DNA from: Solirubrobacterales bacterium
GTDB lineage: Bacteria; Actinomycetota; Thermoleophilia; Solirubrobacterales; Solirubrobacteraceae
Direction: 5' to 3'
NCBI GenBank assembly: GCA_003137075.1
Contig: PLES01000181.1
Span: 15,612-64,447 of the forward strand
DNA length: 48,836 nt
A model generated the notes under the pieces. That model had not been told where the DNA came from. It did not search any database and was given only the letters and a program-made list of their open reading frames with translations. The translations under genes and the position numbers were made by a program. Every line of letters starts with the position of its first letter. The first letter of the stretch is position 1. This document shows, one piece after another, positions 39,142 to 48,185 of this stretch.

Positions 39142-39597
39142 TCAGCTGAGACCGGCGTGGTCGGCGACCCGCCGAAGTAGTCGCGCGAATTCGCGTGCTT
39201 CATCGCCATCAAGTGGCGCGGTGAAGTAGGCCTCTTGGTCGTCGGCGGCACGTCGCGCCTCTGAAAGCAGCTCCCGGGCCTTGTCGGTAAGCGCGATCGC
39301 ATGCGCGCGGCGGTCAGCCGGATGCGGTCTGCGCTCCACGAGCTTCCGGGCTTCGAGGCCATCGACGAGTTTGACCATCTGGTTTCGGTGAAGACCCATG
39401 GCGTCGGCGAGCTGCTGCTGGGAGAGCCCTTCTGCATCAGCCACGTAACTCAGAAGCTCGAAGTGTCGTGCTCCCAGTCCCAGGGGAGCGAGCCGCTCTG
39501 CGAGCCGGTCAGTCGCGCAGAAACCGAGCTTGACCAACAGAAAGCCAACCCGCTCGCTCAGCGGACTGTTGTCATCGGTGCTTGAGGGTTTCGACAT
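39142..39597 (-). CDS. MarR-family transcriptional regulator
   Basis: The 151-residue protein is a winged-helix MarR regulator: LGARHFELLSYVADAEGLSQQQLADAMGLHRNQMVKLVDGLEARKLVERRPHPADRRAHAIALTDKA covers helix-turn-helix and wing (DRRAH). The start at 39597 is the ATG of MSKPSSTDD. It is divergent from a YceI gene; the 87-bp gap is AT-rich and carries GCAATCA and ACAATCA repeats that could be its site. Confidence 0.9.
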   Translation of the reverse strand: MSKPSSTDDNSPLSERVGFLLVKLGFCATDRLAERLAPLGLGARHFELLSYVADAEGLSQQQLADAMGLHRNQMVKLVDGLEARKLVERRPHPADRRAHAIALTDKARELLSEARRAADDQEAYFTAPLDGDEAREFARLLRRVADHAGLS

Positions 39598-45917: not shown

Positions 45918-46895
45918 TCAGCGTGCGTCCAGCAGGCCGAGGTCGCGGAGGCTGTCGGCGGTCTCCACGATCGAGGTCGTGGCGGGTCGCGGTTGCCAGA
46001 CGAGTTCCCGCTTGGCGCGGTCGTTGTGGATCGTCAGCGGCGACGGCTCCTCACCGGGCGCCTCGTCGGTTGTGACTCGCTCGCCTGCAGGCCCGAGGTG
46101 GTCGCGGAGGATCTGTGCCAGCCCCAGCCAAGTGATGGTCGGGCCGTCTGCCAACAGCAGGTAACGCTTGCCGGCCGCATCCGCTGTCGCCATCGCACGG
46201 ATATGAGCGTCGGCGACATCACGTACATCGACAACGCCGAAGCGCTGGCGTGGCAGCGCCGGCATCGTGCCCTCGATGATCGCCTTGAAGCCGTTCAGGC
46301 TCGAGCGCAGTGACGCCACCAACGACGGGCCTGCGATGAATGTCGGATTAACCACCACCAGCTCGGTGTCGTGTCCTTCACTCTCGATGAAGTCCCAAGC
46401 AGCGCGCTCGGCGATCGCCTTGGAACGCGGGTACGGCAGCAGACCCGGTGTATCCGGGTCGGTCCAGTCTGCTTCGGTGTAGTCGCGCACCGGTTTAGGC
46501 GAATACCCGACCGCCGCGAATGAGGAGGTGAGGACGACCCTGCGCGCGCCGGCGTCGCGGGCCGCCTTCAGGACGCGCACAGTGCCCTCACGGGCGGGGA
46601 TGATCAACTCGTCGGGGTCCTTGGGCTGCGCTGACGGGATCGGCGAGGCTACGTGGTGGACTTCCTCCACACCTTCAAGCGCGGCCAGCCAGCCGTCGTC
46701 GGAGGACAGATCTGCGGCCACTAGCTCCAGGGCGGTGTCGTCCACACCACCGCGGCGCACGGCAGCACGCACAACTTCCTCTCCATCCAGCGACCGCACC
46801 GTGGCGCGTACATCACGCCCGTCACCTAGCAGCGCGGCGATCAGCTGCGTTCCCAGATATCCGGATCCACCTGTCACCAACACCTTGGAGCTCAT
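45918..46895 (-). CDS. NAD(P)-dependent epimerase/reductase, extended SDR
   Basis: The 325-residue protein has the extended-SDR nucleotide motif TGGSGYLG (8-15) and the active-site Tyr155-x3-Lys159 (YPRSK) with Ser124/125. Sequence around VVLTSSFAAVGYSPKPVRDYTEADWTDP is typical of dihydroflavonol-4-reductase/aldehyde-reductase-like members. The start at 46895 follows GGAGGTGG. It overlaps the MerR stop by four bases (ATGA), so the regulator is upstream in the same operon. Confidence 0.87.
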   Translation of the reverse strand: MSSKVLVTGGSGYLGTQLIAALLGDGRDVRATVRSLDGEEVVRAAVRRGGVDDTALELVAADLSSDDGWLAALEGVEEVHHVASPIPSAQPKDPDELIIPAREGTVRVLKAARDAGARRVVLTSSFAAVGYSPKPVRDYTEADWTDPDTPGLLPYPRSKAIAERAAWDFIESEGHDTELVVVNPTFIAGPSLVASLRSSLNGFKAIIEGTMPALPRQRFGVVDVRDVADAHIRAMATADAAGKRYLLLADGPTITWLGLAQILRDHLGPAGERVTTDEAPGEEPSPLTIHNDRAKRELVWQPRPATTSIVETADSLRDLGLLDAR

Positions 46896-47335
46896 CCGAG
46901 CACCACCTCCGCTAGCCGTGGAAGCATCTTGTGTACCTGCATGTTCGCCTCGATCTCCGCACCCGCATCGGCACGGTCGCGGGCATCCCAAAGCGCCGCC
47001 TTCGCCCGAAGGTAGTCGAGGTGGGTACCGAGCTTCGCGATCTCGCCTGCGACCCGATCGGCGTGCCGCAGCAGCAGATCGCGCTGTTCCCCCGCCGCCA
47101 GATGCCCAAGCTCTCGGTTCGCCTGATACCTACGCATGTCCTCGATCCCAACGCCCATCGCGCGCAGGCAAGCGAGCGCCTGCAACGTGTCGAGTTCTTT
47201 CTCGCGATACCGGCGGTGTCCGCTGCTTGGATCACGGGCGATCGGTCCGATCAGCCCCACCTCTTCGTAGTAGCGCAGCGTCGGCTCACTGAGCCCGCTG
47301 CGCCGAGATATATCCCGGATTGTGAGCGCTGTCAT
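46892..47335 (-). CDS. MerR-family transcriptional regulator
   Basis: The 147-residue protein has the MerR winged helix at its start (LTIRDISRRSGLSEPTLRYYEEVGLIGPIARDPSSGHRRY) and a coiled-coil helix after it. No cysteine metal site is visible. It resembles MerR proteins paired with SDR or aldo/keto-reductase genes that respond to reactive small molecules. The ATG at 47335 is used; it is coupled to the downstream reductase gene. Confidence 0.9.
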   Translation of the reverse strand: MTALTIRDISRRSGLSEPTLRYYEEVGLIGPIARDPSSGHRRYREKELDTLQALACLRAMGVGIEDMRRYQANRELGHLAAGEQRDLLLRHADRVAGEIAKLGTHLDYLRAKAALWDARDRADAGAEIEANMQVHKMLPRLAEVVLG

Positions 47336-47555
47336 ACCGACAGCAAAACACACCTCAAGCGCTTGAAGTCAAGGGCGCTCGACAAGTTTTGACGGGAGTA
47401 CCACCGCCGGATGTCCGTGAGTACTCCAAGCAGGCGGCTCCGAAGACTGAGTCAACGGACTCGATCAAGCGCTCGGCGTCGTGGACTTCGCGATCTTCCC
47501 GCACCTCGATCGTGAGTACCTGCCCGACAACTGCCGCAGGCCGGAGCGGTCAACT

Positions 47556-47598
47556 CGTTGGCCATACCAACGCTCCTGTATCGTTGGTATGGCCAACG
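47556..47598. promoter_or_regulatory. 17-bp perfect inverted repeat before MarR-like gene
   Basis: CGTTGGCCATACCAACG at 47556-47572 and its exact reverse complement at 47582-47598 flank nine bases. Each arm is itself an interrupted palindrome CGTTGG-N5-CCAACG. This fits two regulator dimer sites, or one arm set of an RNA switch. Confidence 0.75.
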
Positions 47599-47607
47599 AT
47601 ACAGGAG
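47573..47607 (+). promoter_or_regulatory. 15-bp inverted repeat that would sequester the ribosome binding site
   Basis: CTCCTGTATCGTTGG at 47573-47587 pairs perfectly with CCAACGATACAGGAG at 47593-47607 over a five-base loop TATGG. The right arm contains AGGAG of the AGGAGG ribosome binding site (47603-47608). It uses the same bases as the 17-bp repeat, so the two hairpins exclude each other. Confidence 0.7.
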
Positions 47608-47614
47608 GTCCTTC

Positions 47615-48028
47615 ATGCCGTCCCTTCCCCAGGTCACCGGTCCAACCGAGCATGCGTTACGCGCTCTGCTAGACCGCGAACTCGCCTCCTCGTCGATCCC
47701 CGACTACCTAGCCTGGGTCTGCTTGAACCTCGCGACCGGATCCACGAGTCGCGTAGACCTTGAGGCAAAGCTCGAACAAGCGACGAGGTCCACGCCCGGC
47801 CTCGCCGCTCGCACAACCAAGCGACTTATCGCTCTCGGCTTGCTTACAAGCCAAGCGCAGCCAACCGCAGCGGGCCAAGCCGATCTTGATGCGACCCGGC
47901 AACGCGTGAAGGCGACCACCGACCAGCTCACGGCCGGCCTGCCTGATGCCGACCTCACGACAGCGATTGAGGTTTTGGATCGCGTCAGAGCCCGTGCCGA
48001 AGCCATGCTCGATCAACCGCTTGTGTGA
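47615..48028 (+). CDS. MarR-like winged-helix regulator
   Basis: The 137-residue protein has a MarR-type arrangement: an N-terminal helix (PTEHALRALLDREL), a winged helix (LAARTTKRLIALGLLTSQAQPTAAGQADLDATR) and a C-terminal dimerisation helix (AIEVLDRVRARAEAML). It is shorter and more divergent than classical MarR. The ATG at 47615 is well placed after AGGAGG. The inverted repeats directly before it suggest autoregulation. No operon partner is clear; the next gene starts 157 bases on. Confidence 0.7.
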   Translation: MPSLPQVTGPTEHALRALLDRELASSSIPDYLAWVCLNLATGSTSRVDLEAKLEQATRSTPGLAARTTKRLIALGLLTSQAQPTAAGQADLDATRQRVKATTDQLTAGLPDADLTTAIEVLDRVRARAEAMLDQPLV

Positions 48029-48185
48029 GCCGACCCAAACACGGGCGTGCTGCGGCTTCTCAAACGGCTTCGTATCGATTCGCGTTACGGGCGCACCCGG
48101 CTGCGCAGTACTCGACAAATTGGTGTGCATCGCCGATCATGGCGACGATGGCGACCGTCACAGCAATCTTGATCGGGGAGACCCT

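Follow-up and report, generated by a model that had tools for sequence, protein, structure and literature searches.

The operators of the marO type, which are bound by regulators such as MarR, SlyA and HucR, are short palindromes lying on promoter elements, often two or more of them, upstream of a MarR gene and its divergent target. RNA thermosensors, riboswitches and attenuators rely on mutually exclusive hairpins, one of which lies over the Shine-Dalgarno sequence, and hairpins described for some transposase genes mask the ribosome binding site and so keep read-through transcripts silent. The locus described here comes from a Solirubrobacterales bacterium (assembly GCA_003137075.1, contig PLES01000181.1, positions 15,612-64,447 of the forward strand; this whole stretch of 48,836 nt is called the window below) and shares traits with each of these systems. 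As in the marO type, its palindromes, by comparison with related loci, lie over promoter elements and belong beside MarR genes with divergent targets; unlike in the marO type, the regulated small gene of the window is located away from the gene of its likely regulator, and its two sites mirror each other exactly, which creates long inverted repeats. On paper this locus, too, can form exclusive hairpins of which one would mask the Shine-Dalgarno sequence, just as in the thermosensors, riboswitches and attenuators, but the stems are neither conserved nor covarying, have no Rfam match at the gathering score, and have their left arms upstream of the predicted transcript start. As with the transposase-gene hairpins, the AGGAGG would be paired in a transcript entering the locus from upstream, yet the nearest upstream gene is divergent. 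Our analysis favours two MarR operators in tandem, acting at the level of transcription, a reading to which we give a probability of roughly 0.86. The locus comprises the following features:

47555-47599, no strand: long inverted repeat 1, arms of 18 bp (47555-47572/47582-47599), 9-nt loop, 100% complementary
47573-47607, no strand: long inverted repeat 2, arms of 15 bp (47573-47587/47593-47607), 5-nt loop, 100% complementary
47556-47572, no strand: operator site 1, CGTTGG-CCATA-CCAACG, an exact match to the pattern, with equivalent first sites upstream of relatives
47582-47598, no strand: operator site 2, CGTTGG-TATGG-CCAACG, an exact match to the pattern, overlapping the predicted -10 box
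47579-47584, plus strand: predicted -10 box TATCGT, the commonest hexamer at the equivalent place in other loci (20/45)
47603-47608, plus strand: Shine-Dalgarno sequence AGGAGG, from the sequence, 6 bases from the ATG
47615-48028, plus strand: small gene for a predicted MarR-fold protein of 137 aa, with its ATG at 47615-47617; homologue alignments begin at the same Met

The first-pass annotation of this DNA had drawn attention to a 17-bp inverted repeat (47556-47572/47582-47598) interlocked with a 15-bp one. The latter is perfect, as described; the former is present, but its arms are 18 bp long. Among the distinct perfect hairpins of the window with loops of 3-12 nt they rank first and second in length, the third having arms of 12 bp, and are as improbable by chance as had been supposed, the longest arm among 300 dinucleotide shuffles of 47300-47800 being 9 bp. 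In the window, the two operator sites (47556-47572 and 47582-47598) are the only places that fit CGTTGG-N5-CCAACG without mismatch, and reverse-complementing one of them yields the other exactly. Hairpin 1 consists of site 1 paired to site 2, and hairpin 2 of site 2 folded on itself and prolonged outward by a further 9 bp, into the AGGAGG. This outer arm is unique to the window locus (none of 156 other sites extends outward by more than 5 bp) and is beyond what the operator reading explains; it may have arisen by chance or through template-switch correction of a quasi-palindrome or, with low probability, belong to a lock at the RNA level. We regard the long hairpins as a by-product of two operators that are mirror copies by chance, together with the locus-specific outer arm.

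The view of the repeats as tandem CGTTGG-N5-CCAACG operators, also raised in the first pass, is borne out by comparison between genomes, in which the same sites precede many MarR-family regulator genes. The tandem pattern TTGG-N5-CCAA-N10-18-TTGG-N5-CCAA was found in 12 of 399 genomes of the class and 14 of 146 of the family, making a union of 15 genomes with one place each, and its reversed control gave 0 in every genome listed. One of these 15 places is the window itself (L057) and one (L055) lies inside an open frame of 205 aa; 12 of the other 13 have a divergent MarR homologue and the remaining one a MarR fragment at a contig end. The regulated neighbour at these 13 loci is a gene of the small MarR-fold family in three cases and a SnoaL-like gene in 10, with Pfam SnoaL_4 confirmed for two example neighbours. 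The association also holds in the other direction, starting from regulator loci gathered by a protein pattern, independently of the operator (the best 80 of 199 confirmed loci, of which 79 were usable once L066 had been dropped as too short). Among these 79 of the best 80, at least one site is present in 62 and at least two in 42 (61/78 and 41/78 without one of the duplicates L077 and L079), 17 have no site, and the reversed control gave 0/79, with a background of 0.004 per kb. Divergent targets include SnoaL-like proteins, a protein with an epoxide-hydrolase N-terminal domain, and a little-described family of MarR-fold proteins that lack the charged wing motif. Among the titles and opening lines of abstracts listed from the open-access literature, none was about a GTTGG-N5-CCAAC operator.

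Comparison also places the sites on a promoter. In a set of 94 regions, consisting of the window and 93 comparison regions (79 named regions, 12 tandem loci, L016 and L019; the tandem loci L055, which is coding, L057, the window itself, and L060, a near-duplicate of L059, were left out), sites could be counted in 77. A TANNNT hexamer on the target strand overlaps the left half of the site at 45 of 158 sites, compared to 11 of 158 in a mirror control, and at 45 of the 77 loci, the window included; the hexamer found in the window, TATCGT, is the commonest form of this overlap. From this conserved box we infer that transcription would start around 47591, with a leader of about 24 nt, and neither left arm of the hairpins would therefore be transcribed. 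A generic sigma-70 scan of 47330-47700 found no promoter-like site, so the -10 box is a claim made purely by comparison.

The gene downstream had been called MarR-like. This is right as far as the predicted fold goes: AlphaFold2 gives the 137-aa protein a MarR-like fold (pLDDT 81.3, pTM 0.69), and its best Foldseek matches are MarR proteins (probability 1.00, TM 0.65), with a best E value of 1.7e-3 and none below 1e-3. It does not hold at the level of sequence families, since the protein reaches no Pfam cut-off, has no MarR model among its Pfam hits and matches no NCBIfam model. Upstream of the ATG, its frame stays open and contains a TTG at 47558. Remote relatives were found in 6 of the 146 family genomes, our genome included, with 33-38% identity in the best-aligned cases, and further members adjoin regulator genes in Streptomyces, Nocardioides and Micromonospora. 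The upstream regions of the relatives contain CGTTGG-N5-CCAACG-like sites, usually two to four, with differing spacers, and a divergent MarR homologue is present at all 11 related small-protein loci listed in this upstream comparison, one of the homologues being cut by a contig end. L166, a more distant relative, has no TTGG-N5-CCAA site and no MarR gene in 2001 bases, and L167 has no such site in the 1037 bases that end at its contig end. A plasmid search with the 137-aa protein gave no match, and a scan of genome contigs with it gave 317 pattern stretches, of which 0 were confirmed.

The first-pass annotation had proposed that the hairpins act as a translational switch in the RNA, one of them burying the ribosome binding site and the other freeing it, and on paper the two structures are just as described, including the AGGAGG and the ATG. 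The RNA of 47545-47630 folds at -39.0 kcal/mol (z -6.3; 0/200 shuffles equally low), and forced folds of 47540-47640 give -42.2 kcal/mol for hairpin 1 and -43.5 kcal/mol for hairpin 2, making these perfect hairpins mutually exclusive and nearly isoenergetic (about 1 kcal/mol). The Shine-Dalgarno sequence is, moreover, mostly paired when the transcript begins at 47573 or further upstream (mean unpaired probability 0.15-0.21), compared to 0.41 for a start at 47591. Comparison does not bear the switch out: spacers, long arms and the arm hiding the Shine-Dalgarno sequence all lack conservation in related loci. The stem of hairpin 2 shows no covariation beyond that of shuffled alignments (score 0.130 versus 0.114 in 12 aligned sequences; 112/500 shuffles as high), and its outer 7 pairs, disrupted in 4 to 9 of these sequences, are mostly absent in the 11 related upstream regions. 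Hairpin 1 would require inverted spacers, and the match to inversion in 80 other adjacent pairs from the 93 comparison regions (mean 1.64) is close to the null (1.52, sd 0.11), with exact inversion in 2/80 (0.27 expected). These two pairs, in L073 (Nocardioides) and L138 (Phytomonospora), are both upstream of a regulator gene. An Rfam search of 47300-48100 returned four chance-level matches, none near the gathering score. The first pass had itself set two observations against the switch, namely homologues keeping the operator halves only, which is what we find, and a start downstream of 47573, which the -10 box predicts at about 47591 on comparative grounds. The divergent orientation of the nearest upstream gene also speaks against a switch, as does the negative sigma-70 scan, which equally misses the promoter proposed here. 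We consider a translational switch very unlikely, and the results on covariation, on the inversion of spacers, on the outward extension and on the position of the promoter led us to reject it as the main function. It is quite unlikely, as a single combined proposal, that the locus is locked at two levels, being a MarR operator as DNA while any stray transcript from upstream folds and hides its Shine-Dalgarno sequence, and that the wing-less MarR-fold product might in turn inactivate the MarR repressor by pairing with it; the gene would then be translatable only from its own repressor-controlled start. A long perfect inverted repeat could also stem from a mobile element or act as an intrinsic terminator, which is scarcely credible here given that the repeat is present as a single genomic copy (the only other match to a 517-base query in the genome was its own reverse strand) and that a scan found no terminator-like site.

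The identity of the regulator is the point at which the operator reading meets some opposition, since the divergent neighbour in the window is a MerR gene (46892-47335, minus strand) and not a MarR gene, and the regulator would therefore act from another contig. Our candidate is the product of the C30 MarR gene (L003, G000:C30), which passes the Pfam MarR cut-offs and is directly preceded by CGTTGGTGCGGCCAACG. With a regulator profile built without C30 (from 7 of the 9 other rows), this protein is the best of 21 matches in the genome, at 160.7 bits, the next having 107; it also ranks first, at 202 bits, with a profile that has C30 as its first row, a rank that is partly built in. The shorter pattern GTTGG-N5-CCAAC occurs six times in this genome (two in the window, a third directly ahead of the C30 MarR gene, and the other three within ORFs of 220-520 aa), and because its reversed control gives more single sites (9 versus 6), single sites alone mean little there. 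In L003:1480-1517, before the C30 MarR gene, TAGATT can be seen by eye 7 nt ahead of the ATG, and the sequence suggests that the mRNA of this gene may be leaderless. The window contains another MarR-family gene (39157-39567, minus strand), which matches the regulator profiles more weakly (62.8 and 64.1 bits); no exact CGTTGG-N5-CCAACG lies near it.

Where the first pass had suggested the MarR-like protein encoded at the locus as the binder, a true MarR protein whose gene lies in another part of the genome is more likely, and the C30 protein probably binds the window sites. Autoregulation by the small protein would fit its MarR-like predicted fold and the position of its gene directly downstream of the sites, and is unlikely because the sites track the true MarR gene, with a SnoaL-like regulated neighbour at 10 of the 13 tandem loci, and because the charged wing motif D-x-x-D-R-R-R-N, invariant in the aligned regulators, is absent from the small-protein family; this absence makes DNA binding by the small protein doubtful. 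The adjacent MerR regulator is the nearest true regulator gene, and the sites could be its own, were it not that they recur next to MarR genes and that the MerR gene has a palindrome of its own at its 5' end (ACCTCAAGCGCT/AGCGCTTGAAGT, 47352-47369), which presumably resembles a MerR-type operator; we judge it highly improbable that the sites belong to MerR.

According to the MarR operator model, both CGTTGG-N5-CCAACG palindromes would be bound by a dimeric repressor of the MarR family, for which the C30 protein is the most likely candidate, and which would repress rather than activate the small gene. Within the promoter, site 2 would cover the -10 box and site 1 would fall in the -35 region, and through this overlap repressor bound at both sites would exclude RNA polymerase until a ligand releases it. 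The same repressor would also control its own expression via the one site that precedes its gene. The identification of the eye-catching repeats as, very probably, a transcriptional operator settles what they are and reveals a regulator/operator pair that is common to several actinobacterial genera. The wing-less MarR-fold family encoded opposite MarR regulators may, for its part, represent a partner or an antagonist of the repressor.
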